The notes under the pieces are model-generated. The model was not told the origin of the DNA. It ran no database searches and saw nothing but the letters and a program-made list of their open reading frames with translations. Shown here piece by piece: positions 17,299 to 47,699 of a stretch of 64,000 bases of DNA. The stretch is from the NCBI GenBank assembly GCA_950106755.1, contig OX467088.1, positions 12,198,001 to 12,262,000 of the forward strand, given 5' to 3'. How positions within the stretch are numbered: the stretch's first letter is position 1; the number at the start of each line of letters is the position of its first letter. Both the position numbers and the translations under genes were made by a program. The DNA comes from Climacium dendroides. Its lineage: Eukaryota > Streptophyta > Bryopsida > Hypnales > Climaciaceae.

Positions 17299-20154
17299 TC
17301 AAGTATATGATGCAAGGCTTCGGTTGATGATGTCAATTTGAGCAGCTGGAATCTTGATCATGCATTGGTGAGTATCCTTCCGAATGTTAGACTTCCACGC
17401 TGTCATAAGAGCATTTGTATGCTCCCAAAGTGGCGGTTCGGTTTCATCCACTTTCCAACGTAAACCTCTTTCACTATCCCATCCAGTGTAGAAGTCTTGA
17501 ACATCTTCATCTCTCGATGTTGGACGGAAGTACTGAATGCGTATATAATTAGGTTTCTCCGGATTACAATTTGGATCAGACAATGCCCTTGCAATCCAAA
17601 CAGGATGACTGTCACCTTCTGTAGGTCGAATTGCAACAAAATATCCTTCAAAGAGATCTCGACCCACCCTAAAGGATGGTTGTGGACGACCTCTCAAAGG
17701 GCCTACGTATGCATCATCTTCTCCGAACTCTTCACGGTCCTCGCCGTCTTCATCTAATTCATCCACCCGAGTAGCTTGAACACGGCTAGTTGGCCAGAAA
17801 CCATCCTTTAAAACAGAAGATGAAGGTAGTGGTTCTAGCAATGCTATCTTGACGCCACGCCAGTAGTGCACTACGTGCTCATAACGTCTTCGGTACTCCC
17901 CAGTGCGATCTTGATTGCACAAATGCTCCCAGTACTTTACAAATCCGGATATGCCCTTCAAGATGTCCTCCGTGCCTTTCATTGGACTTGGCAAAACTGC
18001 TTCTGGCACTCCACGTGGCCACAAACTTTGCCCTTCCGAGTCCTCCTTCCACAATTTCATTCCATTACCAGCCCCCTTTGGTAACCAATCAACATCAGTG
18101 CACAACATCTTGTACTTCATAACTGGACATCCAGTAGAGTCCAAGTAAAACTTGACTTGTTGTGGCTTTGTATGACCAACCATGATGTCATTGCCGTCTA
18201 AAACACTGCCTGCTATGAAACCTTTGAAATCTGGCACCTCCTCTATGAGGTGAGGGATTGTTGGAATGGATTCCACATCCATAAACGACTTCATAAGTGC
18301 AGGAATTGTAAGGAAGTTTTCCTTCTTCAAAAGCATACTCCATCTTCCAAAGAGCGCATCAATATCATCATATGTATGACCCACGATCATGAAGTTCACG
18401 TACACTTCACGAAAGATCTTGTTTGCAACAAGTAGAGACCAGTAACAAAAAACAAATCTGTTTTTGTTGTCTCCGGTGGCATTATCCATCTGCACATTCA
18501 GAATTGGAGGCAGTGGCATCCCTGGACATAAGGTTTCCGGTGGTGGAGGTAGTGACGTTTCACACACTTCGACACCCTTGAGAATTGCCTTGGACAAATT
18601 TGTGGATCCCGACCCCGTAAACAATTGCCGAGAAGATGATTTCGGTGGTAATTCCAAATCTCGCAACAACTTTGCCATGGAGCCAATAGTGTAGTTGGAG
18701 TCGTGGGGAAACATATCCAAGCCATAATGCGCGTATCGAACATCACCATGACCGTGGGCAATCATGCCAGTCATTGAAACGGGCAACTTCGTGAGTCCAT
18801 CAAGTTCTTTAGTCTTATGGGAAAAGACCGGAGAAGCAGTCTTGGCATGGTCCATCTTGTCATGGTCCATCTTGTCATGCATGATTGTCAAACATTCGTG
18901 TGGAAACTCGTGCGAGCGGTAACGATTGACGTAATACATCTCCCTATGCGCCCGAGCAATAGCCAAATGCTTGTCAAGCCTCCTTGACCATATCAAAGCA
19001 CTTTGAGATCCAGCAATACAACTTCTTCGTAGCTCTTGTAATTTGTCACACACTGAACACCAAGCGAAATTATCACCAGGTTTCTTCACCTCGAACTCCG
19101 AGAACTTGGAAGACCTGATCTTGCTTAAGTTCGAAGTTGAAACCTCGGGTAATCCGAACGCTGCATTGACGTCGTTGATTTCCTTCATCTTACCCTTCCA
19201 CTGAAAAGTAGAGGGAAGACACATGGAAACAACCTTGTCCCCTGACTTCAAAGTTCGAGTACGATGTGGCATGTGGTCCGCCTCCTTCTCGAGGATGCAC
19301 TTTAGCGTTGCAGTTGCTTGTTGGGTGTGCTTTCTCGGCTTCTCCAATCCTGTATTCCCATGATCTCTTACCTCTCGTTCGTCCTTCCAATATTTGAGGT
19401 ATCGATAGAATGTGGCCTCCGGGACTCCAGAAATATGCATCCATGCTCGCATGCACACATTAATACCTTCAACTGTCACCGTCTTCCTTCCACGCGCATC
19501 TAAATGAATAGACCTATGTACTTCAGTTTTCATGTGCGACCTAAACTTGAATGATGTACAGGAGTACATTCTCTCGCGGAAGGCTCGAATCTTCTCCCTT
19601 GGAAACGGTTGAACGCAATTTTGAGAGCAACAGACTCTACTGGACACCAAGTTAATGGACTCTGGGGTGAGGAGTTCCTTAGATTTGCGGGATGTCACGC
19701 GAGGTGGATTTCTGAGGATACTTGAGTATGGCCGAGCAGATGTTGGAGGCTGTAGATTCTGGAGGCGAGCTTGCAGTTGATTAAATCTATCCCAAGCCTC
19801 ATGGTCGTGAAGGCTTGCTCCCGCGCAGTGGACTCGCTTAATCGGCCAAGCTACCAAATAGTAAATTTGCTCCTGAGGGATATCCACTTCAGAGAATGTC
19901 TTGGTGATGTGGACTACTACATGGGTATCTCCAAGGGGACCACTAGCCCCAAGCACGAGGTCTAAGTTGACACTATGGCAAGTCCCTTCGCCAACAAGTA
20001 AACTCGCCTCATTGTAGAGAGTGACACATCTTGTATTCCATAGACGACGCGGGATGCCCTCGCATTCAGGAATGCCGACATTCATCCCTTCCAGAATAGG
20101 AAATTCTTCATCCGAGAACTCCATGTCGTTGATGGGGTCCCCGTCAATATTCAT
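17299..20154 (-). CDS. DUF7869-type transposase-like protein, intact (copy A)
   Basis: This is a single uninterrupted 951-codon frame, much richer in G+C than its flanks. I recognise the DUF7869-type architecture found in many plant and animal repeats. It has a Cys-rich N-terminal module (VCCSQNC, about residue 172), a helical segment with VCMRAWMHISGV, a central pair Cys-x-x-Cys (WCSVCDKL), then the conserved core MDNATGDNKNRF (Asp557) and VGHTYDDIDALF (GHT at 592-594). The C-terminal part carries a WIARAL...IRIQYF stretch that may be a BAH- or Tudor-like barrel. The D...N and HT...DxD pattern suggests an RNase-H-like or DDE-like fold, so a transposase role is my inference. Translation starts at the first ATG of the frame; an upstream exon cannot be excluded. 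Palindromes cover the 600 bp upstream. A decayed relative lies at 57.3-62.6 kb. Confidence 0.8.
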   Translation of the reverse strand: MNIDGDPINDMEFSDEEFPILEGMNVGIPECEGIPRRLWNTRCVTLYNEASLLVGEGTCHSVNLDLVLGASGPLGDTHVVVHITKTFSEVDIPQEQIYYLVAWPIKRVHCAGASLHDHEAWDRFNQLQARLQNLQPPTSARPYSSILRNPPRVTSRKSKELLTPESINLVSSRVCCSQNCVQPFPREKIRAFRERMYSCTSFKFRSHMKTEVHRSIHLDARGRKTVTVEGINVCMRAWMHISGVPEATFYRYLKYWKDEREVRDHGNTGLEKPRKHTQQATATLKCILEKEADHMPHRTRTLKSGDKVVSMCLPSTFQWKGKMKEINDVNAAFGLPEVSTSNLSKIRSSKFSEFEVKKPGDNFAWCSVCDKLQELRRSCIAGSQSALIWSRRLDKHLAIARAHREMYYVNRYRSHEFPHECLTIMHDKMDHDKMDHAKTASPVFSHKTKELDGLTKLPVSMTGMIAHGHGDVRYAHYGLDMFPHDSNYTIGSMAKLLRDLELPPKSSSRQLFTGSGSTNLSKAILKGVEVCETSLPPPPETLCPGMPLPPILNVQMDNATGDNKNRFVFCYWSLLVANKIFREVYVNFMIVGHTYDDIDALFGRWSMLLKKENFLTIPALMKSFMDVESIPTIPHLIEEVPDFKGFIAGSVLDGNDIMVGHTKPQQVKFYLDSTGCPVMKYKMLCTDVDWLPKGAGNGMKLWKEDSEGQSLWPRGVPEAVLPSPMKGTEDILKGISGFVKYWEHLCNQDRTGEYRRRYEHVVHYWRGVKIALLEPLPSSSVLKDGFWPTSRVQATRVDELDEDGEDREEFGEDDAYVGPLRGRPQPSFRVGRDLFEGYFVAIRPTEGDSHPVWIARALSDPNCNPEKPNYIRIQYFRPTSRDEDVQDFYTGWDSERGLRWKVDETEPPLWEHTNALMTAWKSNIRKDTHQCMIKIPAAQIDIINRSLASYT

Positions 20155-20238
20155 CTCCGTATCCTTTAGACAAAATGGTAGTCACTCTGTTCAGAAGAAC
20201 AACACGTCTTTCAGTATCCGAATGAAACCATGACAATC

Positions 20239-20828
20239 AGTTCGAATCGAGCTTAACAGAGTGGATCTCGAGATCCAGAACACTCACTAAAATGATAGTA
20301 TGATCTGCGTATACAAGCATCTAGAAAGGATGAAAGCTCTGAATATTTGGAAAAGGGCGCGCGGGTAGTTAAGACATTAGAAATTCTCTTCGACAAATAA
20401 ATGGGAACTTACCCACGTCAACGTCAGCTCGATTCGAGCTGACCACTGGATCTATCGATTCGCACCTATTCAATCTAATCTATAATATTCTATATCACAA
20501 TCCTTACTCACGGCGACTTGAGATGACCAACCACATTATGATCATAGATCCTCATTCAGCTCGAATCGAGCTGATCACCTACACTACATGACTATTTCCT
20601 CGTTCAACTCTTTTTAGAGCAAATATGTAAATTGATAATTATTTCTCAACTGGCAAGATAAGATCTTCAAGAATCATAGTTTAGTTCGAATCGAACTAAT
20701 CGTGCAGCCGTTGCACTCGTTCATATATATTCTTTGTCAACTCAGTCAGCTCGAATCGAGCTGACTGTGTAGTTTCTGCACTTAGTCAATATGTTCCTTG
20801 TGTGTTAATGATAAGCTCGATTCGAACT
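20239..20828. repeat. Palindrome cluster A upstream of the DUF7869 gene
   Basis: Six copies of an interrupted palindrome, consensus (C)AGCTCGAATCGAGCT(G), lie within 600 bp: 20,239-20,254, 20,425-20,441, 20,557-20,573, 20,681-20,699 (TTAGTTCGAATCGAACTAA), 20,745-20,764 and 20,813-20,828. Half-sites appear as AGCTCGA or AGTTCGA. The same motif is clustered at 39.3-40.1 kb and occurs in introns of the ParB-like gene. A further palindrome, GGATCTCGAGATCC, is at 20,262. A promoter or protein-binding role is inferred from placement. Confidence 0.85.
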
Positions 20829-22700
20829 AAATCTCCCTGGATTTTCCGGAATAACTGATTCACTGATATTGAATAGAGTATTCCGTATTTTCCGGCATAC
20901 ATTTCGGATTTCCCTGAGCACTGAGACAACTCTACATCATCAACGACGAGGTCCGCGAAATGGTAAAATTAAATCGGTAATGCAGGGCAAATTGCTTCAT
21001 ACAATCATCGTTACAAAACTATAGAAACGGTCGACGCGTTCATCAGTACACCAGAGTTGCGAAGTCTTGAGCTCTATATCAATCAAACCGCAATACGGAA
21101 ACAACAAAGCATCAAACGGAAGTTGCATACCACCACATCACGTACGTCTCATTCAAAATAAATGAAAGCATCCCCAAATCTGCAAGAAACAAGTGTAGCA
21201 CTTACAAGTCCTTCATAAATGCTGAGGGGAAAGCACACGCAAGTCGACTCGGACGACGACAGAGAGAGCGACAGAGAGAAAGAAAGAAAGAAGATGACTG
21301 AATTCCGTGTGAAGGCGTCTTCCACAGTCAATGGCGGGAACTTCTGGGCGGCAAGAGAACGGCGCGAACTGAAATTTGAAATGCGTCACTGTAGGGCTTC
21401 CTAGAATTAGGGAGTACTTTGAAAAAGCACAACCAAAAAAGAGCATCCGAAGCGAACTTCCGGGGTACTATTAGGTGTACATTCCAATCATACATTCCCG
21501 AGAATATGGAACGCATACTTTCCAGGGAAATACTGTAAAGTTTAACTAGCGGTTGGTACTTCTGAATTCATAATTAGTATTTTGTTAGAATTTAAGTGCA
21601 TTATATCATATAGAATGCAAAAACAAAAATTTGATAAATCTTCAAATTGAAATTAATTAAAACAAAATTATGAAGAATCAGTTCGTCCTTGCTATGCTAT
21701 GCATGCATCATTTGAATTTCAGTATAATTTTTATGTATTAGATAGAATAAGAAATAGTTTTCAAAATAAATATTCAACTAAAAACTATTAAATTTTTTTT
21801 TCAAATGAGCAAACTTTGATATATACAACAGAAATTCATTAAACGATTTATGTTAAATAATATACATTAATGATACATTCAAATGCATTAGAAATTTGAA
21901 TCAATTATTACAAACAATGGCAATCCAAATTCTAGAATAAAAAATAAGCACTTCTGAAATGTAAAATTCAAGATTTCCATAAACAACTTAATTGTTGTGA
22001 AATCAAAAATAGGCATGAATGTTTTTTAAACAAAATGAATGCACTATTAATTCAATATATTCCATATTAATAAGAATATTAAATCTGCTAATAACAGGTT
22101 AAAAAAAAATAACAATTCCAGAGTCCAGATTGAATAATTCAATATTCTATATAAATAAATGCATCTATTTAATAGTAAATCCCACAAATGTAAAATACAT
22201 TCTCCACAATAATTTTAAGTTTATTTAATTACAACAAATCCAAGTTATTCTACACTTCGGAGATGGAACACATATTGACTGTAGAAACATCTACAATTTA
22301 AAACTTTTTGGTTCATTTGGCTAATGAAATAGACATGTAAATGAGAGAAAAAATTAATAGAAATTAAAAACGCCCTATTCAATGATAATGCATGGGCACC
22401 TCATGAAAAAAATAATGTAATTCAATATTTCCACGTGGCTCAAGGTTCATGCTAAACTGACTGAGCCTGCACTTTGTCTCACAAAGTCAAAAAAAATATG
22501 CAATAAAAGTGCTAATGAAAAAGGAAAAATTCATAGAAATTGCAATCACGCTCTTCTTTAACAATCCATGGACATCTAATCAAAAAAATAATGTAAATGA
22601 ATATTTCCACGTGCCTCAAAGTTCATACATAAAAGGCCAAGCCTGTACGAACGTCATTAACGTTATAGTACCTTGTGGTACGAACGTCATAAAACCTTGA
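20829..22700. other. Intergenic, mostly AT-rich; no gene seen
   Basis: 20,830-21,540 is moderately GC-rich with a short GA-rich tract (21,255-21,295). It may hold the far 5' region of the minus-strand gene. From 21,540 the sequence is strongly AT-rich with only short frames. Nothing recognisable was found. Confidence 0.5.
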
Positions 22701-22711
22701 GATACCAACGT

Positions 22712-23290
22712 CATGAAATTCAATAAAGGCCAATCTAGAAGGTCCAAAAACCTGTGTACACAAGCTCTAAATTCTTTTCGGATGTGGTTTTGGTCAATGC
22801 ATGTGTCGAAAAAAATACATTCATTTGGTGACCCACATGTATTTATAAACCTACACTATTAAAATTGACTATAGTTTGCGGTACCAATGTCATGAAAATC
22901 AATCAAGGCCAATTTAGATGGGCCCAAAGTATTTTCCCATAAGTTCTAAATTTTTTTTGGTTGTGGGTTAGGTCAATGTATGTGTGAAAAAAAATAAATG
23001 GGTGTCCCACATGTATTTTCAAACGTAAAGTCTTCAAATTGACTGTATTTTTGGGTCCCAATGTCATGAAAATCAATCAAGGCCAATTTAGATGGGCCCA
23101 AAGTATTTTCCCACAAGTTCTAAATTTTTTTTGGTTGTGGGTTAGGTCAATGCATGTGTGAAAAAAATAAATGGGTGTCCCACATGTATTTTCAAACGTA
23201 AAGTCTTCAAATTGACTGTATTTTTGGGTCCCAATGTCATGAAAATCAATCAAGGCCAATTTAGATGGGCCCAAAGTATTTTCTCACAAG
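22712..23290 (+). repeat. Tandem array of about 174-bp units (left arm)
   Basis: About 3.3 units repeat with period 173-179 bp, marked by 'catgaaaatcaatcaaggcc' at 22,891, 23,065 and 23,238 and a diverged first unit at 22,712. The inverse array lies on the other side of the CACTA transposon at 36,260-36,590, so the pre-insertion locus was an inverted repeat. Confidence 0.8.
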
Positions 23291-24072
23291 TTTTAAATTC
23301 TTTTTACAAGTTTCCATTTACTATTACCTTATTTCTTCATCAAATTGCAAAAGAAATTGTATAATCGTCAAAGCGTATGACATGTTGAAAAAGGTTATTG
23401 GTCAAAAAAGTGAGTTCAATGTAAATTACACTATAAGAAAACTGTGTCTGCCGAGACATCGCAATTTTGACATCCGGACATCGCGCTTGACATGTCTACG
23501 TCAGGGTGGACGTCCAATTAGACCATGCTGCCGTGGACATGCATTTTGCATGCTACGTCCACGCAGATTTTCAGGCTGGACATCGTGATGTCCAAAAAAA
23601 CTTCGGTCAACGGGGGGCTTAGGAAGTTGACATGTGGCTGCCACATAGGCGCGGGAAAGCCAGAGTGACTTTTTTTTCATCCATTGCCCGTCTATGATGT
23701 GGCGTCTGACGTGTATCTGACGTGGCATGCCACGTCAGAGCTGACGAGATTGGTTGACGTGGCATTCGCAAATGTTGACGTGGCATTTTTGGAACCACTT
23801 GTCTGGTCTCCCTAGCAATTTCGGATGTCTCCTGAGACATCGCTGTGGACATCCGCATGGCTTTTATGATGTCAAATGAAACATTTGTATGTTGAATGAG
23901 ATGTCCATCCTGACGTGTGGAATTTGCACATGCGTGCTTCTCAAAGCAGTCACTGTCATAGGAGATGTCTACTTGCACGAGGCAGCGCACCTACATGGTA
24001 GGGTAGCAGATGTATAGATGCATTGTAGGATGTCAGCGGTAACGTCCCGTTAGAAGATCTAAGTCTTCTGCA

Positions 24073-24330
24073 ATGCATGTATGCATTTTGTTGGACATTC
24101 CACTGTTTTCGTGGATGCATTTTATTGGACATTCCGATGTTTGGTGTGTGCATTGTGTTGGACATTTTGATGTTTTTTGTGTGCATTTCATTAGACATTA
24201 TGATGTCCGATGGATTTGTTGTCTGGGACACTCCGATGCTTTGTATTTGCATTGAATTGGACATGAAGATGTCTGAGCGGATGTGTGTTACGAGATACGT
24301 CATGCTTAATGAATGCCTTGTATTGGACAT
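24073..24330. repeat. 33-bp subterminal tandem repeats in CACTA
   Basis: Units with GGACATT(N)nGATGT start near 24,093, 24,127, 24,160, 24,193, 24,226 and 24,259. The period of about 33 bp keeps spurious reading frames open on both strands. Subterminal repeats of this kind usually bind the TnpA-like protein in CACTA elements. Confidence 0.75.
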
Positions 24331-24817
24331 TTTGACGTCACAATTCATTGGTTGGCGGGACATGGGATGCTGCTTCAGACATCAACAACAACCACAAATT
24401 GACAATGACTTCAAATAGGAGTATGTCCATATTCATAGAATAGAAAATCCAATACAATGAACAACCATGTCTCACAAAGGAGGATCACGGTAGAACACAA
24501 AGCCAAAGCTGAAAATGAAGACTAAGCCGAATAAAAAAATCAACACAAAGCAAAACACATATAAGAGAATTTCATATGAAAGCAACCTCTTCAGTTTCTT
24601 TTCCCGTCCGCTACTTTCCAGACATGCGAATGTTTGCAGTGACGTCCCATTGTTGGGGCTAACGTCCTCCTGTCTCTCGGGACGTCCACTGCAACACGGT
24701 CTGCATTCCATTTGACACAGGTATCAACGACTCCATGTTCTTGGAACCACTGTCCACGTCCGAGAACGGCATAATTTCAATACAAACTTCAAGATTGGTA
24801 AGAATCTCACCGTGTGT

Positions 24818-27289
24818 TCATTTCTTGCGTGGTGCCTCTCCCTTCTTAGAGGGATCTGCCACCGTAGAAGGGCTTGCCTTCAAAGACTTCGGTGCAGTTG
24901 TCTTCAAGGGCTTTGTTGGGGCCACAAACTTGGACAGCTTTACACTTGGTACAGTCCTTGTGACCCGATTGGAACGGGTAGACGACCCGGAGGATTGCAT
25001 ATTTGCCACCTAGAACAAAGTGATAACATAAAACACTTTAGAGAATGTGGACTCGTCGCATTTGGGGCTACATGTGGATGCAAGGACACAAAGCCTAATT
25101 CTTATGAGGAAAAAAATATGAATGACATCCAATGACCTCTTGTCATACGGTTTAGGGTGTGTAAAATACCTCTTGAACTCTACCGGTTTGTGCTGCAAGA
25201 GCAGACGTCTGTACTTCGGCGGGGGGAACTTCATCCACGAAAATGGCATACGGGTCTGTGGAGGACTTCTTCGTGTCCTTTCCGACGTCTGCTGAAGCAT
25301 CGCTGTGCTTGGAAATGGTCTGCACAACGCACAATTGGACGTCTGCATCAACGTTGTTGTCAGTCTGGACGTCCGAAACGGTGTCTTTCAGGTAGTCCAC
25401 TTCTTCTTCAATGCCATCTGCGATGTCTTAAGCAACGTCACCACCGACATCAACATTGACGTGAAGATCCCCCTCGACGTCTGTGGGGACGTCCTCAACA
25501 GCTACCTTCTTCACAGGAGTGACATCGCATCCAACATTCTGACCACCACCTCCTGCATTTGAGACAACATGACTTTGAAGATTGTTGCCTCCAAGGGAAT
25601 GAAGGAGTTGTTGGAGAAGCTCTTCTACTCGACCAAGGCGCCCTCCCAACTCTGCATTCGACGTCCGCAGTTCTTGTATAGCTGGACTGTAGTCATGAGG
25701 TGAGTTGCGGGTCTCCGCTTGGCGTCGAGCATACTCCTTGTCCGTTGCCTCCTTCACCTCCGACTCATAAGGTATGCGTCCAAGTTGTAGGGTCTAGCAC
25801 ACGAAAACAATTAAAGGTCTCGACATTGATGTCCACGCAAATATCATTTCAAACATGAGGTTCATAAATGCAGACATCTTACAAAGGAAGATGATGTCTG
25901 AATGGACATTCGAAACAAATGGAAGTGGAGGACTCTCACCAATTCACCTATGACATTCTTCTCAATGAGCCTCAATTGAGCCTCCTTGAACCCCTTTGCC
26001 TTAGAAACTGCACGCATTTGCGCGGACTTCTCCTTGGCGTCTGACGAGCTGCGCCTCTCTTGCAACCTCCTCCACACGGAGGGATCAACTTCTGGTGGTT
26101 TAGGGCAGTCCCCATCGATCAACTTCATCAAATGATGGCGAACATTGATCAGAGTCTTTGTCACATGCTTCGGAAACCACGAAGGATTTATCTCCACTTG
26201 GTCGCCTCCAACTTCCCAGTTTGAAATAAGATGGTCACAATACAAAACACTTGCAAACGATAAGACTTCCGAGATAATTTAATTTCGCAGACACAATGAT
26301 GTCTGCACAGACATCATTGTAGACATCTGGACACCACTGCAGACGTTAATATAGAAGGCATGGTGATGCTCATCCAAATTTCATATTCAGCATCATGACG
26401 TCCAAGAGGACATGAAATTCAAAAAAAGAACTAACAACCTACTCAAGCAATTTCGGTCACGTCACATTACCTGCATAGATTCTATCAAAGAATCGTTGTC
26501 TCTCATCCAAAGGCTGGTCAGCCCACCCAAACAAAGGATTCAATCCCTTGGCAAAAGCCTTCACATCTGCTATCAAATAGCTTTTTGCCTTCCCACGGGG
26601 AGAACCGCGTTCGTTCACCTCCACATATTGCTTGCGCTTGTTGTTGCGCTCCTTCTTCACATTGATCTTGCGAAGTAGAGGTTTAATAGGCTCCTTCTCC
26701 ATGACCATTACATCATCTGATTCTTCTTCCTCGTCCGTGTCAGGAGATCGAGATGTGGTCCTATGAAACCTCAAATACAAACAGCACTTGCAAGTCAACG
26801 GCCACTCGATCTTCGTTAGAACATCAACTCAGACATCGACTTGGACATCTACTTAGACAGAAGACTAAGACGTTGAAATGCAGAAGGCAGCGTGCTGTGT
26901 CTGACACAATGTCCACATAAACGAATATACACATCCAACCTCCTTTCAATAACACACCACATAAGAGGTTTAGGTGGCACTAGTCACCTGGGCTCAGATT
27001 CAACGGAGTCGTCCTCGCTCATAGACAACTGTGCTTCATTCCTTCTCGTGCGTGACACTCCCGTGTGACGCCTCTTGGGTGCTGGAGTACTTGCTACAGC
27101 TTTGCCCTTGTCCTTCACACGACTACTCACATGCCAAGGATCGTTCCTTTGCTTCGACCGTTGCTCTGTGAGTGGCCGACCTCTACTGTGTACCTCCTCA
27201 GCGGTAGAGTCGTCATTGTCGCTGTCAGCATGATGCCGAGACAGTGCTGCCTGTTTCACGGGCAGCTTTCTCCGAGAATCGGGGGCCAT
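24818..27289 (-). CDS. TnpA-like CACTA protein (Transposase_24-like), five exons
   Basis: Five exons with GT-AG borders can be assembled: 27,289-26,988, 26,760-26,471, 26,265-25,940, 25,793-25,170 and 25,009-24,818. Their lengths sum to 1734 nt, exactly 578 codons including the stop. The product starts MAPDSRRKL and has an acidic Ser-rich N-terminal region, then a segment with FGWADQPLDERQRFF, then the Ptta/En/Spm (Transposase_24-like) core with VDPSVWRRLQERRSSSDAKE. A short coiled coil follows (ELGGRLGRVEELLQQLLHSL), then a Lys/Pro-rich tail. Such proteins bind subterminal repeats and assist Tnp2. One in-frame TAA (25,428-25,430) breaks the fourth exon. The exon 3 acceptor is the least certain border. 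Confidence 0.75.
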
Positions 27290-27423
27290 CTCAGCTAGCG
27301 GCCAACAATGAAAAACCTCACCCAAAACCTGCGCAAGGCAATCAAAGCTCAAAACTAAAAGAACAAAACGACCAACTAACATGCTATAATGGTGTGCTTT
27401 CGTGGACATCAATTCCAGCACCT

Positions 27424-27519
27424 GGACGTCCAATTTAACATTAGGACGTTTTAACGGACGTCCAATTTAACATTAGGACGTTTTAACGGACGTCCAATTT
27501 AACATTAGGACATTTTAAC
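27424..27519. repeat. 32-bp tandem repeat, three units
   Basis: Three near-identical 32-bp units start with GGACGTCCAATTTAACATTA at 27,424, 27,456 and 27,488. They lie just upstream of the TnpA-like start codon at 27,289 and contain the palindrome GACGTC that is frequent in this transposon. A TnpA-binding promoter array is a reasonable inference. Confidence 0.75.
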
Positions 27520-27829
27520 GGATGTCCACCGTTCGACTCCTCTGTATACAAGACGCATAAGAACCAAGAACGTGACATGTGATGCACTGACGGACATCAC
27601 ATTGGACATCTGCATGTTTATAAAAACATTACTACTAAAAGCCAACACAAGGATTTTCTCATGCTACTCTCAAAGGCCAACACTAGGATCACTCCTGCAA
27701 ATGGAAACCAAAGTACTGGAGTGTAAGGAGAGAGATTGAAAATTCACTACAACATAAGACTACAACAAAGCAAAACCAAAAAAAAAAAAAAATTCAAAAA
27801 CCTGTAAGGCTCCTGCTGCTGAAGGAGCT

Positions 27830-28215
27830 GCGGCGCGGGAGGGGCTCCTCCTCCGGCGCAGGGACTCCCCGTGGTAGGGACTCCCCACGGCAGGGGCGAT
27901 CCCTGCAGCAGGGGCGCTCCCCGCGGCAGGGGGCTCCTCGCCCAGGGGGCTTCCTGCAGGGGGCTCCCCGCAGGGGGGCTCTCCGCAAGGGCGGCGCCGG
28001 GAGGGCTCCGTGCGGGGCTCCCCGCCCTTGCGTGGGGGCTCCGTGCAAGGGTGCCGGGGTTCCCCGCTTGGGCATGGGAGTCCTTCCCGCCTCCACACTC
28101 CGCCTCGACACTCCCACGCTCCGCCTCGACGCTCCCACGCTCCGCCTCGACGCTCCCACGCTTCACCTCCACGCTCTCACGCTCCACCTTCGCGCGTTGC
28201 TCCTCCACCTTCAAA
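27830..28215. other. Extreme GC-rich, G-run-rich block
   Basis: A very GC-rich island inside an otherwise AT-rich element, made of imperfect repeats of 'gcaggggctccccgc'-like words, followed by about 24-bp units ('cctcgacgctcccacgctcc', 28,095-28,175). Many runs of four to six G make quadruplex formation possible. Open frames run on both strands here because of the repeat and GC content, not because of coding. Confidence 0.6.
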
Positions 28216-28424
28216 CAAGAGATGCATCAACAAGAGAACAAAGATAATCCCAATGTCAAGCTTAAACTCCCCAACGCTCCTAGTGATGTTCAGTTAGACA
28301 TCAGTTGAAGCCTCAGTGTGTCACGGATGGAAAAAATGGATGAAACCCTAATCTGCCTACACAATTCAATGACGCCAATTTTAATTCCTAGAATTGACGG
28401 GAGCTGTTGGAGGCCATGACGGAG

Positions 28425-28500
28425 GCTTGCGGGGCGGGGCGGGGAGGGGAGGGGAAGGGAAGGGAGGAGAGGAGAGGAGAGGAGAGGAGGGAGAGGAGGA
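28425..28500 (+). repeat. Polypurine G/A tract
   Basis: About 75 bases are almost purely purine, built from 'ggggaggggagggg' then 'gaggagaggagaggag' units. Such mirror-repeat tracts can form triplex or quadruplex DNA. It sits next to the GC-rich block within the CACTA element. Confidence 0.7.
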
Positions 28501-29019
28501 AGCGAAGAAGGGAGGAAGTTGTCTACACGGTGCTTGCTCTTGTTTAGGCGCCTGCTGCGACGGGGGCTTCCATCTACTATAGCTACTGATTTTTCCATCC
28601 CTGCGGTGAGTGCAACAGCAACAATGCTGTCCACAAACTGGTGAAACATGCTCAACTCCTTAGAAGTTTGCAAATTCGAGTGTAGGTGAAGGAAGAAGAG
28701 CGGCTGCAGAAAGAGGAAGGCCGAACGTGGACCTAGGGTTTGTCTAAGTCCCATGACGGAGCGACAGCCCCATGTGTGACGTCGGGTGGTGTACTTTTCA
28801 GGAGGGCCCTTAGGTCGGAAGTTGACATTCGTGTGCTTAATCAGACATCACAATTGACATGTAGACATCAACTCGGACATCATGATGTCTGACTTGGTGT
28901 TAGTAACGATGCGTTTTTTGCCAATTTGAAATGGACAAGGGGATATGTTGCGATGATGTTTTGTATGACATCACAAATGACACTGTCATGTCCTAGTAGG
29001 CATGACTGCGTCTCATTGC

Positions 29020-29310
29020 ACATGTTCTCAAGAAATTCGAATTTGGCTTTGACCTTCCATTTTTATTCTCCAAGTGAATAATTCGAAGTTGTGAAATGGA
29101 ACTTGGCTTTGACCTTCTATTTTTATTCTGTAAGTGGGGTCTAAAGTAAAAGAATATCCTAGAGTTTGAATTAGGCTTCATGAAAATAAAATTTGTGAAA
29201 TGGAACTTGGCTTTGATCTTCTATTTCTATTCCCTAAGTCATTTCTTTGAAGCTTCTTCAAAATACAATTTCTAAATTAGAACTTGCCTTTCACCTTTTA
29301 ATTTTTTTTT
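29020..29310. repeat. Imperfect repeats within CACTA interior
   Basis: A unit containing 'gaaatggaacttggctttga' and 'cttctatttttattc' followed by 'taagt' occurs about four times between 29,020 and 29,310 with variable spacing. The surrounding 28.8-30.6 kb is non-coding interior of the transposon. Confidence 0.55.
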
Positions 29311-35192: not shown

Positions 35193-36259
35193 GGTGTTCA
35201 CATCATTGACATGTGTATGCTGTGATAGCATTTAGACGTCACATAGGACGTCTGCGAAATACGTGGACATCAACATGTTCATGTCTTCCAAGTATTCCTG
35301 ATGCATCTTGAACATGCATTTTCTGACAGAATGTGTCTACTTCGGTGCTGCCCGTGACATCATAAGAGTAGGTTGCAATCTTATCCTAATGAAGTTTGAA
35401 GAACGTGCACAAGTTGTATGACTTGAAGAGCCCAGAAATGCCCTTGACCTAAGTAAACATATAGGAAGGAAGTGCATCATGTACAAATTCATCCTTTTTC
35501 ATAAAACAATGTCATGCATCTGGAGTCATTTTTGACATTAAATTGGACGCCTACAGTTGCTTCTACAACGCCCACACGTCCAGTCAGACGTAATGAAGTG
35601 CATCGTGGATAGCATGTGCTTTGAAGTTACAATCGTAGGAAATACAAAATGTTAACGCTAGAAGTGATGTCAATGTGGACGTCAGAACGTCAGGTGTGAT
35701 GTCCACAGAGACATCCGAGGTCGGAACATGGACTGGTCGTGGATGCTGACATGGCATGCCACGTCATCATCCCTGTCCACGTCATACAATATCCACGTCA
35801 CACAGCAGCCACGTCATCTTGCCACCTCGTCAGTCCACGTCACACAATAACCACCTCATCTCGCCACATCAAATGCCACGTAAGCTTTTAAGAGTCACCA
35901 CCTGCCCGTTCTCCTCTTTTTAGCCTTGGGCAGTCACTTCACCTCTGATCGCACCAAAATTCTATCTAAACTTGTGAGGTATGTTTGACCAAAGATGATG
36001 ACGTGGCTAAACATGTTATTGTGGACATCCTGGGAAACATCTGATGTCCACCTGGATGCCTTACATTGCATGCACGTTTTTTGTAGCATCAATATGCTGT
36101 GACTGCAATCTAGCAATGCTAACACAGACATCATCGCAAAATCTCGACTTTCTCGACCTGACACCCTGACGTCTTCTGCAACGTATCGTGTCTACGCGGA
36201 TATATGTCGTTTTTGGCTGGATGTCCAGGCAGACACCGTTTTCTTATAGTATTAGTAAC

Positions 36260-37765: not shown

Positions 37766-37827
37766 ATCACGATTTTGCGTTGTCGGGATCGGGTTAGGGT
37801 TTGGTCCCGCCTTTCGCGCTGCGTCTA

Positions 37828-39277: not shown

Positions 39278-40107
39278 CAGCTCGAACACCATTGAATATC
39301 AAAAGTACAATGTACATAATCAGATGGGTTCGAGCTGAATATGCAGGAATTAGAACCACATAATCAGTTCGACTCGAGCTAATTACTAGTCGTAGGACCG
39401 TTGCGAGAACATGCTGAACGTTGTAGCAACCCGTAGAATTAGCTCGAATCGAGCTCATTAGAAAATGATGAACGTCTAAAAAACCTAAAAATCAGAGTCG
39501 ACTTCATGTAGAATATAAACAGTAGTTCAATATAAATAAATAATAATACTGCTCGAATCGAACTAAAACAACCAAAGAAAATCAAATAGAGAATAAACAA
39601 CAACAAAATGAAACAATGAACCAAACAACGAGGGGATTTAATCAGGTAGAGAGAACATGGGGGTCACTCTACGACGCAAGAAGCTCATTGATGATCAGCT
39701 CGAATCGAGCTGATCATAAACCAAACACACCATAGTCACCTAAAAAAGATGATCCGTATAAAAGACTATGTATTATGAGATAGCTAAAATCGGAAAAAAC
39801 AGACAGAGGACATCACATAAAATCACTAGTCGGGAGAAACACTAGAAAAAAAGACAGAATGAAAAAATCACTGATATCGCAAGGGAAACCTAAATGATAA
39901 GCCCACTCATAACAGAAATAAAAAAACACTGCGCTGAGGTATAGACAAAAACCCATTAAAACACCACTGAGCCTCCGCTAAATATAAGAAGGTGCACCTC
40001 CGAGAGTAATGTCCATGTAAACTGACGGGCACAATTAAGAAGTGAGAACCAGATAGATGACCTAAGTAGAGGTAGTGATGAAAGGCGATCAGCTCGAATC
40101 GAGCTAA
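39278..40107. repeat. Palindrome cluster A upstream of the ParB-like gene
   Basis: The AGCTCGAATCGAGCT motif recurs at 39,365-39,383, 39,440-39,456, 39,550-39,566, 39,691-39,717 (a long version extended by ATGATC...GATCAT) and 40,089-40,107. Half-sites lie at 39,278 and 39,326. The last copy is about 35 bp before the first codon used here. Further copies sit in introns and 3' regions at 41,599, 43,112, 43,140, 44,163, 45,650 and about 45,755. They avoid the long exons. Confidence 0.85.
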
Positions 40108-40140
40108 ATAAATAGGCTAACACGTTGACCACACTACAAC

Positions 40141-43100
40141 GTGCAGATGGACAGCCAAGTTGAGAAGCTGCAACAATACTTCACAAGGACAGAAGTCTTG
40201 AAGGTCAGTGAGGATGACGGGGACGACTTCCTCGACGACGGGGAGTACTGGGAATTCACTTACCCCGAGAGGGTCGAGTGTTGGAGCCTTACCATGATCC
40301 CCTGTACAGAGCTCATTGCCTTCTACGTGAAATACAAGGGGATGAGCTGCTTCCTCCCCATGTCCTACGAAGAGCAAGTGAAGGACGTGGTAGAAGACAT
40401 TCCGCCAACGATTAAGATTCACTGTCAAACGGCTGTCTTGGGTGTCCCCGCCAAAGATCAATACAACTTCACCATCTACTTCAACTCCGAGAAAATACCA
40501 TTCCGCGTGACAAATCTCATCCAGAGTCTTGAAACTACGTCGTTTCAGGACCACATGAGGGAGCTCGAGGAGAAGGTGAACGAGAGGGTCTTCTTGAAAG
40601 AAAACGGAGATCCAATATCAGGCCACAAACTATGCAGGAAGCTCAGGCAAATGTTCCAAGACTTTGCTTGTCTAAAAACAAAAATAACCATAGAGCGGGA
40701 AAGCAAAACTGCCCGCACCGTGTCCTTGAATGTGGAGAGCCAAGGAGGGAGTCAGATCTCCACTGACAAGCAACCTCCTGCGAATACACAGAGGAGGGGG
40801 CAACGAAACAAAAAGCCTGCTGATCCTGGGAGACAACAAAGGCAAACCAGTAACCTTGCCTCTTCCTCCCAGCAGAAGTCCATGGACAAATCGGGTGATC
40901 AGTCCGGCGTTGACGACATCGCCTGCGACTTCAGTGACATTCCCGAGTCTTTGCGGGTGAACAGGAAGCCGGACTACGAAGAGTCCAACAAGGCCTATAA
41001 GAGGTTCTGGACTGCTTGCACGGACGTGTTCTTGTACGAGATGGAGAAGAAGACCCTTCCCATCGACAAACTTATTCAGGCACCGGCCACGCTGAACATC
41101 CGAAGCAAAGAGGATCGCATCGTCGAAGACATGATGCACTGGCTCGTAAATATGCCAGACCACAGCAATCGGCAGACCCTCTGCGTGATGCCCGTGAACA
41201 AGCCCACAAGAGACGGTGATGATTCGTGGGAAGAAATCAAGGACGGCAATTTCTACATAATAAACGGGCAGCACAGTGTGTGGGCAAGCAAACTAATGCA
41301 GGACCCCAAGTACAATGTCGCACCCGAGATCATCAACGACTACCGAGCATGGAGTTGCTACATTGTGTGGACCGAGGACGCTGAAATTCTGCGATCCATT
41401 TCAGCGTATTACAACCGCGTGAACCACTTCCAAGCAATCCAGCCATCATGGGCCACAAACATTCTTGGGGCACGGAAGGTCTGGGAGGAGATGGGGAAAC
41501 CGCGGAACCCCAAGGATGACACCTCCTCTGGATCCATTACAAGCTCCCGGCGGTCCAAGGAGGCGCACATCAATAAGATGAAATACGCGGTAAGCATTCA
41601 CCTCGACTCGAGCTCAATTTGCACTGGGATATGTCCCTCCCACCAAACCCCGTAGTAGTTCAGCTTCAGTCAAGCTCATTCATTAACTGTCAGACAATGT
41701 GACAATTCGTTGCAGGAATTCCTGAAGGCCATGCAGATGCGGTTCTCCATGATCGACGTTGCAAAGGGTCAGACCAAGGCTAAAGGAAAAGACGCAAAAA
41801 ATAGTCTGGTGATAACCAATGAGGTAAAAATTATCACAGCACCAGACGAAGTATTCAACCTCTGGAGTGAGGTCATCTCTAGTGCGGCACATGGCGAGCT
41901 CGTTGACCTAGACACGCTCAAGAAGTTCAACGCCAAGCCTTCATGGAAAACGGAGAACGGAATGCTCAATAAGGAGTATTTCAAATTCTTCGGGAATCTC
42001 ACGTACGAGGACCTGAAGAAGCTCGCCAACCATATTTTGAATAAGTCTGGCGACAAAAGAAAGCAGCCTCATCCAAAAGTGATGATCAAGCAGTCATCGT
42101 CAGTTTTGGAAAGTTGCTACTCATCGAGTGCCTGGATTGAGAGGCGCAAACGAAAACAGTTCGTGAAGAAGGAGTTGAACAAAATTGACCCATCACTCGG
42201 ACTCTTGAACGCAGACAATGAGGTTGTGCCGGAGAAATGGAAGGAGTTTAAGTCCAAACATTTCGTCACCTCGGCCACAATGAATGTTCTCCTCGAAAGG
42301 CCTGGGAAGGAGTTCTTTTCGGAGATTAAGCAGTTGAAGTCCAAGAATAAGACCACAGAAGAAATTTCCAAGCACGCTGCTAAGTTCTTCAAGGTCTTTC
42401 TGAGAGAGAGAAAGAATTTCGTCCCGCCGTCAGCAGTGGCGTACTATGCGCCATACAACATCAAGGACAACAGACACACGGCATGGCCAACTGGTGTGTG
42501 GACTATGGACACTCCAGCTGATCTGAAAGTGGGGGTCATTGACTTCCGTTTGATTCCGGGAGTGTTGTCTAAGCAGAAGGGCACAATCGCGATTCCCTAC
42601 TTCAACACCGTCATGCTGTCGTTGATGGGGAAGCGCAAGCCCCTGCTGAAGGAGGTCCCAGTCTGGCTTTTTATCTGTGCGGATGTAGTGGAGCAGACGC
42701 AAGTAACCGCATTTGTGCAGAACCACGAGGAGTTGTACAAGTTTAGGTGCGAGTATGTGGACTACATGACTACAAGCGTCTAGGTGACATGTCGTCGGCA
42801 AAGGCAAAGTCCCATGCCAAGGTCCTGCTCATGTTCTTATTCAAACCCGAGTACTACACGGACGTCAAAATCCCGAATGCATTTTGGGCTTCGGACACAC
42901 CGGTTTTCAACACGCCGCGCGGGTACAATGAACTGGAATTCCGCATATACAACGTAGAGCTTCGCATGGAATTCTACTTGTGGGTGGTGAAGTCCTTCTG
43001 CAAGGCTGGTGACAGTGTGTTCTCGGTCTTTGCCGGAGGGAAGTTCACATGTGCTGCGGTGGTACGCCCTCTTCCCTCACATTCCTTCGAACTCACTATG

Positions 43101-44137
43101 AGTGTCGCTTCAGTTCAAATCGAGCTTAATTGTCCGTTGATTTAGCTCCAGTCGAGCTGATATGATAGTTTACTGATGCTAAACGCTCGTTTCTGTCACC
43201 GTAGATGAGTTCCGTGAATGTGTTCGCAGTTGGAGTTAAAGAGGACTCCCTCTTCTGGAACGACATCGTCACCACGGCCATGTTGCTTGACAGGGCCGAC
43301 TTTCTGGAGTCGGGCTACAGAGTGGAGGAGCCTAAGTCAAGTAGGCAGCGGGAGTCTCATTCGACACCTTTGCCCACGAAGACAATGCGGAGGGCCCCGT
43401 GGGATTCTCCATCCACTGGTCGTTGGAGCAAGAGACCTATTGAGGAGTCTGAAGTGATCTCCAGCTCCGATGACGACGCAGAGGATTGCCAGCAAGATGA
43501 AATGCCGGATCCTCCTTCATCGCCTGTTCGTGCAACACCAACAGAGCATCGTGGCTCCTCTGCGTCAACTGGAGACGCGATTGAGACGCAATCGTCGTCA
43601 ACTCCGTCGTCCACCCATCCATGGAAGAAAAGGAAGACTTCACTCGTGGATGACATCCTCGAGAGGAGGTTTGCTGAGATCGAGGAGAAGCGGCTCCAAG
43701 ATCGAGCGGAGAACATCCTACAGCAACAGCAGATGAACAAGAGGCTGGATAGCATGCAGACCTTCATGCTGCAAGATTCCAAGGAAGCTAACGACAAGTT
43801 AGACGCCTTGATTTTGTGGATGAAGGGTGGGAGGCCCATGGCCGAGGTCCAGCCTGCGGCACCTCAACTGAGGCTTGAAAACCAGCCATCAGCGTCGTCT
43901 TCGGCCCCACCTTCAAGTCAGGTAGGCCCAACAGAGTTCGCGGTGCCTGCACCACCCTCGCATCCACCGCCTAGGACACCACCTCCTCCACCATCATCCG
44001 CGGTTGCGCCACCGGTACCTGTGGAGGCGCAGTGTGCACTTGTTCCTCCAGAGGCAGGCAATGGTGATGTGGTGGAGACCCCCGACCAGCCAACCGCGTC
44101 TCCTAGCCAAGAGTCCGGCTCAAGTGCACCTCAATGA
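40141..44137 (+). CDS. ParB-like plus DNA-methyltransferase-like protein, four exon blocks (copy A)
   Basis: Exons are 40,141-41,589, 41,716 to about 42,765, about 42,770-43,061 and 43,205-44,137. The introns 41,590-41,715 and 43,062-43,204 have GT-AG ends and keep phase 0. Exon 1 ends in a ParB/DGQHR-like domain with FYIINGQHSVWASKLM (GQH at 376-378) and a following IL...ISAYYN segment. Exon 3 has the end of a methyltransferase fold: FCKAGDSVFSVFAGGKF resembles SAM motif I, and the next exon begins NVFAVGVKEDS like the following strand. The DPPY catalytic motif is not recognisable, so catalysis is doubtful. The last exon is Ser/Pro-rich with a coiled-coil stretch. A tandem duplication GACTACAT/GACTACAA at about 42,759-42,774 shifts the frame by 8 nt between exon blocks 2 and 3. 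Either this copy is broken or I misread a border. Palindrome A copies lie in both introns. Confidence 0.7.
41590..43204. promoter_or_regulatory. Intronic palindrome A copies
   Basis: The intron at 41,590-41,715 contains CTCGACTCGAGCT at 41,601-41,613. The intron at 43,062-43,204 contains AGTTCAAATCGAGCTTAA near 43,113 and AGCTCCAGTCGAGCT near 43,144. None falls in the intervening exon. The span given is from the first to the last of these introns. A binding-site role is inferred only from recurrence and placement. Confidence 0.55.
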
Positions 44138-44377
44138 TCACTCAGTGTTCTTGTACAGTATTAGCTCGACTCGATCTGGTTTTTGACGTGGGTTGTATGT
44201 AGTTTTAGAGTTATCTCATAGACAACTCAACAATTTTGACATAGCTGAACTTGTAGTGGACCGAACCATGGAGTTCAAAATTTTCAGACATTGTGTATGT
44301 ACATCAAAACATTTTTATGTAAAGCGGTAATACCCGGATTCCTTACAACACTTCCTTTGTACACTCCTGACTTGCAG

Positions 44378-45599
44378 GCGCTATCAATGTTGTAGATTTG
44401 TTGCCACCTACTGTTGCATCAGGTGTACTCACTTCCGAACCGACCTCATCGAAGAATGTACCTGATGTTGTCTACGAGCCGACGGATCAGAATGTCACCT
44501 TCAAAGAGGACAAGCCTGAATCCTTAAATAGTGCCGCTCTTCTACTTGAAGACAGTGTCATACCTGATGCTGATCTTCTCGAGGTCATGATACCCGAGCC
44601 AACCGCTACGACAAGGGATGTTACTGCGAAGACAGCCGAGACCTCGTAGCAGAAGGTATGTCTTGAATTTTACATTCTGAATTCTGTGTTTGTTTAGTGA
44701 CACCTACAAATCTGATCGACCGTTTCAATTAGCGCGATGTCCAGAGGCTATGAATGCAGGATAATAACTAGCTCCACATTCATCCATTATTTATCAGGAA
44801 TCTGATCCTCCACGTGATCTTCCAAGACATAAGGAGGTGATCAATCTTCCATTGGAGTCCAGGGTTGTGGACAAGTGGATCAACGTCGTCCTAGACCTCA
44901 ATGGGGTATTGTGCGCCTATGAAGATCACAAGTATAAGGGCTGGTCCAAACAGACTAGGGACGCATTCCAACTGCACTCTGCTACTGAGCCAGCAGTTGT
45001 GGGGCCAAAGCTAGTGTATGTCCGTCCCGGGTGTTCTGATTTCTTACGTGCGTTAGGAGAGATAGCTACAATTTTAGTGTGGAGCAGTATGAAGACTTCC
45101 ACCACTGATGAAGTGGCCGCCTATTTCTTTAAGGGGCTCGACCTACCGGTAGTCAAACTAGGACAGACCTCTTGTATGACTCTGAAATGTAGGGAAAAAA
45201 ACTCCAGAATTACAACATTCAGGGAGCCAGACACAAATAAGGAACTCTTCCTTAAAAACTTGGAGACCTTGTTCACTGGCTACCGGGGGAGGTTCTCGTC
45301 CCAAAATACCGTGATAGTGGATGACAGTCCCATGAAGCACATTCTTAACAATGCTGAGAACGTCATTTTACCAGAGTCATGGTCATACAGAGGTAATGGT
45401 GTGAAGGACACTTTCCTCCTGGATGTCCTGCTCCCTTGGTTCTAGAATCTTCACGTGGCTCGTGAAGAGGGACTTAAGTCCTTCCGAGAGAATGCGGCCA
45501 ATCGAATTGGACGCCGCATGCTCTGTGACGATAGAAAACAGAAGAGGGAGTACGATAAGTTGATGGAGGTCGTGCAGGCATCTTCCTGCATTTGTTAGG
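44378..45599 (+). pseudogene. FCP1/SCP-like HAD phosphatase-domain gene (DxN variant), with two TAG codons
   Basis: Exon 44,378-44,655 joins through a GT-AG intron to 44,797 onward, in frame. The second exon encodes an FCP1/NLI-interacting HAD-type domain: VVLDLNGVLC (first motif, codons from 44,885), ATILVWSSMKTS (second) and VIVDDSPMKH (last). The nucleophile motif is D-L-N instead of the usual D-x-D, so the general acid is replaced and classical phosphatase activity is unlikely. A DLNG-type subfamily is known in plants. In-frame TAG codons at 44,647-44,649 and 45,443-45,445 interrupt an otherwise clean frame, which continues after the second stop with NLHVAREEGLKSFREN to 45,599. No clear initiator ATG precedes the first exon. 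Palindrome A lies in the flanks at 44,163 and 45,650. Confidence 0.7.
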
Positions 45600-45886
45600 A
45601 CTATGCTAAGGGAGGCATAGGTTCTTGATTTCCATGCTCTGGTCTAATTTAGCTCGAGTCGAACTGACTTAAGCCTGCTTTCTACAGATTTGTAATTTCA
45701 ATCCTTATGCCTCTAATAAAATAGTCATGGTTTAGTGCTCGTGTCTCAAATCAGCTCGAGCTTCCTAGTTGCTTGGATGGTGTGATTGATTCACGTTCTA
45801 GGTTTGTTTGTGGATGGTGTTTCATGTTCTCAATGCTATGCAGTTCTATTTCATGGTCATGATATAAATATGATTTGCTTCTAGAG

Positions 45887-47134
45887 TCTGGACGTATGGA
45901 TTTCAACTGATGGAGATGATCACCTTCCGTGCGTTGCGTCGGCGGATTCTATATTGGACTATGGACAGTATGCAATCCTGAGCAGGGGGAACTTTCTGTA
46001 CTCGGCGGCAACAGCAAACTCCACAATGGACTATTCTACTAAGCCCGTGGATGACAGTGTAGTGGATAGTCCGCCTAATAACGGCCCACGTCTGCCAAAG
46101 TCCTGCTCACCTTCTCCTTTGCGCTGCGGGGGGCCACTTGCTTCTCAGTTATCGCTAGTGGCATCAGACATGGCGCCAAAAAAGAAGCTTTATGACGAGG
46201 CCACAACACAAATTCCTGCACCAAGGAACAAGTCAGGGATCTCTCATGGATCTCATGATACTGGTGGATCTTGTGATACTCATATCGGAGCTGCTTGTAA
46301 TAGTGCAAGGCGCCGTCCCAGGTATGTCATGTCAGGGAGCGTCCGGATGTCTAAGACACATGATGGGGTGCAGAGAATTCGAAGCGATGCTCGTCATCTC
46401 GACGCATCGGACCGCATGTTCTTACAACGGCAGAGGCATCAACGGTGGAATGAGTACAAGAAGCCAAATACAGGATACAGTCGGGGGCCTGAGATTCTCA
46501 AGGCGAGGGAGTTATAGCGATGTAAATCACACATATAATACTTGTTCATATTATGTGTTCATATTGTAGAGTGACAGTCTACAAAGAAATACATGTTGGG
46601 AATTTATAAGTGATAGTCTTTCGTCAATACTAGGGGTTCATACATTATACATTTAGGACTGCTCGGTAATGATGTTCTATAACAATATATGGGTGATGGT
46701 CCGAGATGACCCTAAACTATTGGGTGATGGGCGTGAGCTTTATGGAGACGCGAATTATCCAACGTCCATAGTGGAAGAGAAATTCAAGTTTCCAAATAGT
46801 TCACTTGGAGAATCGGTTGCAGTTTTTGCTCCTGGGCAGTCCATTCCACGTCCACAGGTTCCGTTGGAACAAGGGAGTTTGAAGAAACAGAAACACAGTG
46901 GATCGTTTTGTACTGCTGTTTCAACTCCCAGTTGGGGCATCTAGAAGAGAAGGTCGTTGTAAGCGCAATGGAAGCAACCTCGGACAGATTAACAAGGGGG
47001 GATACAGTCGGAGAGAAGAAATTCTAAAGGCTCGGGAGAAATTGAGGACTGCATCTTGTAGCTCATGTACAATTGTATGTAGAAGAGGTCCTAATTATGT
47101 ATATGTAGGCTCAACAATCCCTAAGTTTGTATAG
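45887..47134 (+). CDS. Basic Ser/Arg-rich exon(s), unrecognised, with duplicated 3' tail
   Basis: After an acceptor (CTTCTAG at about 45,880-45,886) an open frame runs to 46,517, encoding SLDVWISTDGDDHL..., a proline/serine stretch and an Arg-rich end with TGYSRGPEILKAREL. A second block, 46,669-47,134, ends with a related tail, GGYSRREEILKAREKLRTA, reached through a frame change near 46,925. The tail therefore occurs twice, at about 46,465 and 47,000. This could be the C-terminal part of the preceding FCP1-like gene or a separate element gene. I recognise no domain and assign no function. Confidence 0.35.
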
Positions 47135-47199
47135 AGAGTAGAAAAATAAAAACCCTAAACCTTAGTAAGGCCTTGAGCCCAATTTTATCAATAGTAGAG

Positions 47200-47690: not shown

Positions 47691-47699
47691 GTCTCTGCT

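Follow-up and report, generated by a model that had tools for sequence, protein, structure and literature searches.

Gene content of the locus

The subject of this study is a 64,000-nucleotide stretch of the moss Climacium dendroides (GenBank assembly GCA_950106755.1, contig OX467088.1, positions 12,198,001 to 12,262,000; referred to as the window), in which an original prediction, made from the letters alone, had proposed a new large element at 17299..47134. On the minus strand lies a gene for a DUF7869 (domain of unknown function) protein and, divergently oriented on the plus strand, a three-exon gene for a protein of predicted ParB and methyltransferase fold (ParB-type gene); a CACTA element separates the two, and an FCP1-like gene follows on the plus strand (Table 1). 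The Pfam scan of the window comprised nine of the 18 open reading frames (ORFs) of at least 150 aa. Exon borders of the ParB-type gene were set by GT..AG junctions together with the points at which the frames of relatives stop and start. The unit is probably wider than the stretch first given, spanning about 16636 to 48114 and measuring approximately 18.7 kb once the nested CACTA element is subtracted.

The copy of the unit in the window is probably dead. The DUF7869 gene, described as intact, is indeed one open frame, but a 15-bp tandem duplication (18840-18879) doubles DKMDH in a highly conserved motif that has the single form in 94 of 111 relatives and the double form in none of the 111; this duplication may have inactivated the window copy. 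The ParB-type gene is present and divergent as described, but its frame breaks near 42783; the FCP1-like frame ends early, at 45443. Full-length predicted proteins are present among the relatives in Physcomitrium patens and Ceratodon.

Table 1. Features of the candidate unit and the nested element (window coordinates).
Feature	Position	Strand	Remarks
Candidate left terminal motif, inward-pointing	16636..16657	+	20/22 inverted match to 48093-48114
DUF7869 gene, single exon, 951 aa open frame	17299..20154	-	PF25273, E 3e-41
Six palindromes upstream of DUF7869 gene	20237..20830		starts 20237, 20424, 20556, 20681, 20746, 20812; all perfect
CACTA element, later insertion, not part of unit	23429..36251		ends CACTATAAGAAAAC inverted, TTA both sides
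Six palindromes upstream of ParB-type gene	39320..40107		starts 39320, 39364, 39439, 39548, 39695, 40089; four perfect
ParB-type gene, exon 1, NGQHS motif	40147..41589	+	ParB/Noc fold in P. patens relative P0112
ParB-type gene, intron 1, palindromes at 41598 and 41660	41590..41715	+	GT..AG; relatives' frames stop/start nearby
ParB-type gene, exon 2, methyltransferase-fold part, frame broken near 42783	41716..43058	+
ParB-type gene, intron 2, palindromes at 43110 and 43142	43059..43204	+	palindrome-compatible peptides in relatives' intron 2
ParB-type gene, exon 3, MSSVNVFAVG..., low-complexity proline-rich tail	43205..44137	+
Palindrome between ParB-type and FCP1 genes	44161..44179		2 mismatches
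FCP1/NIF-like gene, DxN at catalytic motif, frame stops early (45443)	44837..45445	+	PF03031/NIF, E 5.6e-16
Palindrome 3' of FCP1 gene	45649..45667
ORF, function not assigned, possibly fourth gene	45954..46517	+	no Pfam or NCBIfam match
Candidate right terminal motif, two core copies (48074, 48093), inward-pointing	48074..48114	-

A palindrome in the non-coding parts of the unit

The palindrome TNAGYTCGAWTCGARCTNA occurs at nine exact sites in the window, compared to none in 100 dinucleotide-preserving shuffles. When its centre base was left free (form TNAGYTCGANTCGARCTNA) and up to three mismatches were allowed, 18 sites were found in the unit, all of them outside exons and ORFs: six upstream of each of the two divergent genes, two in either intron, one behind the ParB-type gene and one behind the FCP1-like gene. 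The start codons lie about 80 bp (DUF7869) and about 40 bp (ParB-type) from the closest palindrome. No site was detected by this relaxed scan in the 7,754 bp of exons and ORFs, in the CACTA element (12,823 bp), or in 1-17298, 21540-23428, 36252-39259 and 46518-48106; a single site with three mismatches lies in 48107-64000. Within the window, the palindrome is confined to the unit save for this one weak site, which supports the proposed tie between the distant genes. Its predicted distribution was confirmed for both upstream regions, the introns and the 3' flanks on the ParB/FCP1 side, but no palindrome was seen 3' of the DUF7869 gene in the window.

A scan of genome contigs yielded three loci with a DUF7869 relative (L001, L002 and L003). 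L001, a 4,327-bp contig, carries a complete DUF7869 gene, 53% identical to the window gene, and its 594 bp of upstream sequence contain three palindromes with at most one mismatch, compared to none in 300 shuffles. No palindrome is present in its coding part, and the 3' flank has weaker sites (two to three mismatches). The possibility that the palindrome is a satellite unrelated to the genes, raised by the original prediction itself, is not supported at the scale of the window: there the palindrome goes with the genes rather than with their surroundings, and it recurs upstream of the L001 gene. In L002 and L003, distant relatives from records of Bacteroidetes metagenome-assembled genomes, no palindrome was found at up to three mismatches. 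The L001 protein is closest to P0042 (75%), followed by Ceratodon P0096 (59%); the record is filed as a cyanobacterial isolate, and we regard it as contaminating DNA from a moss or another eukaryote. The DUF7869 genes of all three loci, filed under cyanobacterial or Bacteroidetes genomes, are most likely eukaryotic, pointing to probable contamination of public genomes.

Some ParB-type frames of relatives run into introns, and the resulting peptides were compared with the palindrome, taking the best case over codon choices. For intron 2, the best mismatch counts of eight proteins were 0, 1, 1, 2, 1, 2, 2 and 0, i.e., at most one mismatch in five (P0116, P0117, P0118, P0120, P0125) and two in the other three, with residue-shuffle p values up to 0.12; since P0118-P0121 resemble each other, those four cases are not independent. 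Among nine proteins reading into intron 1, P0132 and P0134 fit with one mismatch and seven with three to six, the latter including P0128, P0129 and P0135, for which, with no splice anchor located, the final 20 residues served instead. The anchor for a 5' extension was passed by one of 111 DUF7869 proteins (P0053, two mismatches). A search with peptide signatures of the palindrome revealed a perfect fit in the 5' extension of the DUF7869 protein P0041; signatures of two reading frames were present in two and three of 24 ParB-type proteins and in one of the 111 DUF7869 proteins, while none was found in the third reading frame and none in 61 FCP1 proteins. This peptide evidence is weaker than the DNA evidence, and several of the proteins are closely related.

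Conservation of the gene set in relatives

All named relatives retrieved in protein searches with the DUF7869 and ParB-type proteins belong to P. patens or Ceratodon purpureus. In Ceratodon, a ParB-type protein (P0115, KC19_3G000200) and a DUF7869 protein (P0017, KC19_3G000300) have adjacent tags on one contig of 25,160,467 bases, a linkage read from the tag numbers and the common contig. In P. patens, two of six ParB-type proteins (P0114, P0122) run into an FCP1-like opening, DKWLNV(V/I)LDLNGIL. Furthermore, ParB-type and FCP1 matches were found on contigs of equal size (8979; 183300), as were DUF7869 and FCP1 matches (1005336), which suggests that they share a contig. Based on the adjacent tags, the fusions and the equal-size contigs, DUF7869-ParB-FCP1 is taken as a conserved gene set; linkage in relatives, which the original prediction had named as its test, was found for the DUF7869 and ParB-type genes in Ceratodon and for the ParB-type and FCP1 genes in P. 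patens.

Predicted folds and catalytic motifs

Judging from fold and conservation, we propose that DUF7869 is a DDD-type transposase with an RNase-H fold, flanked by Tudor/PWWP-like and chromo-barrel-like domains. Five acidic residues are conserved in the 46 proteins compared (D432 in 45, D435 in 46, D557 in 46, D597 in 45 and D599 in 46). D432 and D435 are predicted just behind β1, D557 behind β4, and D597 and D599 at the start of the helix following β5, a placement made without residue-level superposition on a model that is poor at 429-437. By sequence, DUF7869 alone matched no solved structure and its alignment gave a single chance-level match (E 0.099), while in Pfam, DUF7869 aside, no family matched more than five of the 46 proteins at E 1. 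Comparison with the KDZ (Kyakuja/Dileera/Zisupton) group, which is marked by its own transposase and, in Zisupton, by an 8-bp duplication, consisted of this Pfam search. A metagenome protein from the Joint Genome Institute, P0111, is a distant DUF7869 relative (27% identity over 405 positions) which retains the D, DN and GHTxxDID motifs; the family may therefore reach past the moss group.

The original assignment of the second gene as ParB-like plus methyltransferase-like was borne out by fold comparison, in which the ParB-type protein is predicted to have a ParB/Noc CTPase-domain fold (P. patens relative P0112) and a beta-class N6-adenine methyltransferase fold. The nucleotide motif of ParB is GxxRxxA; this motif was not found in the ParB-type proteins, which have NGQH instead (15 of 24, the remaining nine being frames or models that start behind the motif). 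Catalytic DPPY is absent as well, DPP(Y/F/W) occurring in none of the 24 proteins; at its place, I/V-D-L/F-R was read by eye in 12, the other 12 having no coverage there. No Pfam match above cut-off was obtained for the 24 proteins. The commonest weak match was Tugs (seven of 24, best E 0.00036), followed by DUF6551 (two) and N6_N4_Mtase (one) at E values near 0.03-0.06. The alignment matched arginine methyltransferases among solved structures (E about 0.009), and a PHROGs search reached at best E 0.028, with no relevant family above the curated cut-off.

The FCP1-like gene has a NIF domain (PF03031, 59.1 bits vs. a cut-off of 21.8). Phosphatases of the FCP1/SCP type, of the haloacid dehalogenase (HAD) superfamily, canonically have the catalytic motif DxDx(T/V), whereas the ORF in the window reads DLNG. 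Among 61 relatives, the motif could be located in 40, and its second place is N in all 40. The NCBIfam models for FCP1 and dullard stayed below cut-off in two relatives. Downstream of the possible fourth gene (45954-46517), a second copy of its 3' end is present at 46900-47060 (GYSRREEILKAREK vs. GYSRGPEILKAREL), possibly a decayed duplicate.

Candidate ends

Candidate inverted ends, which the original prediction had not found, are now seen. In a scan of 15400-17299 against 46518-48700 for inverted matches, 16636/48114 formed the top row (18 of 20 bases); over 22 bases, 20 match, a value reached by none of 300 shuffled flank pairs. This candidate had already been noticed in a self-comparison before these limits were set, and the exact 15-bp core of the ends was equalled in three of 500 shuffles. 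The candidate inverted-end form is CATTAAAATGAGAGT. Its core, CAKTRAAATGRGAGT, which was composed to fit the cases, matches exactly at only four places across the window and L001-L003, namely 16643 (+), 48093 (-) and 48074 (-) in the window and 4236 (-) in L001. In both sequences it stands behind the DUF7869 stop and faces the gene, at a distance of 798 bp (L001 4236) and 642 bp (window 16643).

In wider flanks (13001-17298 vs. 46519-52000), the only other inverted 22-mer pair with at least 20 matches was 14410/50874; it scores higher (21 of 22) but was rejected, as it joins two CACTA-type pieces. Long inverted arms at 14001-15146 and 35049-36234 were also discarded, since they belong to related CACTA elements. 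The self-comparison revealed no longer inverted repeats around the unit; in the window, both candidate ends lie between repeats that match places outside the unit (15632-16234; 48306 onward).

Nested and neighbouring repeats

The CACTA element splits the unit as a later insertion, as originally proposed: it has inverted ends with TTA on both sides and contains no palindrome. Transposase_21 and DUF4218 were identified in its ORFs. Two CACTA-type pieces akin to it (13982-15389 and 50522-51151; 78% and 75% identity) are present in inverted orientation. Left of the CACTA element, 174-bp tandem repeats (22634-23333) recur inverted on its right (36302-36581), outside the CACTA ends, accompanied by a direct repeat (23294-23384/37354-37442); this region is perhaps an older insertion into which the CACTA element jumped. 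In addition, self-comparison showed hairpins at 47266-47453, 47532-47679 and 58986-59135 (87%, 74% and 92% self-complementary), possibly insertions resembling miniature inverted-repeat transposable elements; the former two lie within the candidate unit.

Interpretation of the unit

In our view, the unit is probably a degenerate member of a family of moss DNA transposons which has a conserved gene set and uses the palindrome for self-recognition. DUF7869 would act as the transposase at the inverted end motifs. The family has a palindrome of its own that recurs in non-coding parts only, as shown at the DNA level for the window and one relative. An element protein, most likely the ParB/pseudo-methyltransferase, would load at these parS-like palindromes over promoters and introns, which may protect the element from silencing, tune both divergent promoters, or do both, comparable to VANC on VANDAL elements. 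The FCP1-like DxN protein might help at the level of chromatin or RNA polymerase II, perhaps by binding rather than catalysis. Self-recognition is proposed on account of the VANC-like placement of the motif, the ParB fold of a protein encoded by the element, and the fact that bacterial ParB binds palindromes. The data suggest that the element may encode a protein recognising and controlling its own DNA. On the other hand, the status of the unit as a transposon is unproved, its ends being candidates found by sequence comparison; in particular, the outer flanks agree in 2 bp (TG) only, so that a target duplication, missing already from the original prediction, is still not established. A more far-reaching version, to which we give tentative credit at best, sees a eukaryotic transposon superfamily with a ParB-parS-like system, in which a nucleotide-driven ParB clamp spreads from the palindromes and blocks methylation, DUF7869 transposes and the polymerase is the target of the FCP1-like protein.

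That the ParB-type protein binds the palindrome is inferred by analogy, and its main competitor for this role is the transposase itself. The same transposon could have its palindrome bound by DUF7869, comparable to the subterminal repeats of CACTA elements, for assembly or self-repression, with the ParB-like protein doing other work such as nicking or recruiting; a bacterial ParB-methylase is indeed reported as a nonspecific nicking enzyme in excerpts of PMC5512222. Six perfect palindromes precede the DUF7869 gene, and in L001 palindromes lie upstream and, in weaker form, downstream of it. However, palindromes are located inside the unit and in the ParB-type introns, away from the candidate ends, and we regard this arrangement as unlikely. 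Less probable again is a non-mobile, host-derived or domesticated gene cluster of mosses that a host factor co-regulates through the palindrome. Such a cluster would agree with adjacent tags in Ceratodon, an intron-containing gene and the missing target duplication, but not with multiple copies: five named DUF7869 matches exist in P. patens and three in Ceratodon, and of the six named P. patens ParB-type matches five are within 91-92% of the representative P0112. The transposase-like fold predicted for DUF7869, the inverted end motifs, one of which recurs in L001, and broken frames as expected from dead copies also speak against it.

Two further explanations appear very improbable. Large viruses also carry ParB, adenine methyltransferase and phosphatase genes, and the unit might be what is left of a large DNA virus that had integrated with such a repertoire; yet the Pfam scan of nine ORFs found no capsid, polymerase or packaging family, introns are present, and pattern scans of viral contigs, run with a protein and an alignment for DUF7869, one protein of the ParB type (exon 1), the FCP1 alignment and the palindrome, gave no confirmed relative. 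The genes might equally be chance neighbours, i.e., two unrelated mobile fragments with the palindrome as a common genomic repeat, since they are about 20 kb apart (12.8 kb of it CACTA). However, the CACTA element is free of palindromes, the roughly 32 kb beyond the unit contain only one weak palindrome, and linkage of the genes is seen in both Ceratodon and P. patens.

Comparison with known systems

Large DNA transposons with accessory genes are known, whereas we rate the gene set and the regulatory DNA signal as not found described: literature searches for the name DUF7869 and for moss transposons and ParB-type genes, with Repbase Reports outside their coverage, yielded no paper on the former and no description of such an element. 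IS3EU elements, according to excerpts of PMC12730594, resemble the unit in that transposase and accessory gene are oppositely oriented and chromatin-modifying accessory genes are carried. The ends given there for fungal families are TAYGG..CCRTA with a 6-bp duplication. Membership was rejected on this published description rather than on Repbase sequences, as no TAYGG was found in 15400-17299 (a result that presupposes a left end in this interval) and no 6-bp duplication was found. Profile comparison (hhalign) of DUF7869 with IS150 (0.5%), and of its catalytic part with IS150 and part of IS3 (0.1%), does not decide for or against a distant link.

CACTA/EnSpm, Plavaka and Lanisha (the CMCT clade) are likewise DNA transposons, and the candidate ends of the unit read CA...TG as in most of the clade. 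Nevertheless, membership of DUF7869 in Lanisha/CACTA (CMC/CMCT) was rejected, the C(2)C...H(3-4)H signature occurring in none of 46 proteins between D557 and residue 760. Two of the proposers of Lanisha reportedly work on the moss Ceratodon. The family was proposed in Repbase Reports in 2020 (as cited in excerpts of PMC12730594).

Bacterial and phage ParB-methylase fusions combine ParB and adenine methyltransferase folds in one protein (PMC5512222, in excerpts), but the moss gene has introns, lacks DPPY and has NGQHS replacing the arginine motif of ParB. The ParB/Noc-parS system shares a ParB/Noc-like fold with our palindrome-rich unit; here, however, the palindrome has an odd number of bases, the central one being free, and its binding is putative.

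The closest parallel in regulation is provided by the Mutator-like VANDAL elements of Arabidopsis, whose VANC proteins, according to excerpts of PMC5735166 and PMC10398659, recognise motifs packed in the upstream regions and introns of VANDAL21, binding removing silent marks. In both cases, a short, family-specific motif is dense in the element's own introns and upstream regions, in the company of accessory genes, and concentrated in non-coding parts (18 of 18 unit sites). The systems differ in that no Mutator-like element (MULE) transposase or VANC match was found by Pfam in the nine ORFs scanned, in that the motif is a 19-bp palindrome rather than a tandemly repeated, directional motif of 9 bp, and in the candidate binder, which is ParB-like here. 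If our reading is true, this would be a second, independently built plant transposon that marks its non-coding DNA for a regulator which it encodes itself. DUF7869 would gain a testable role as a transposase, and the ParB-type fold, familiar above all from the partitioning of bacterial chromosomes, would be placed in a mobile element of plants together with a dedicated palindrome. As the element is found in mosses, it is open to experiment in Physcomitrium, and sequence-specific escape of transposons from silencing would become testable beyond Arabidopsis.

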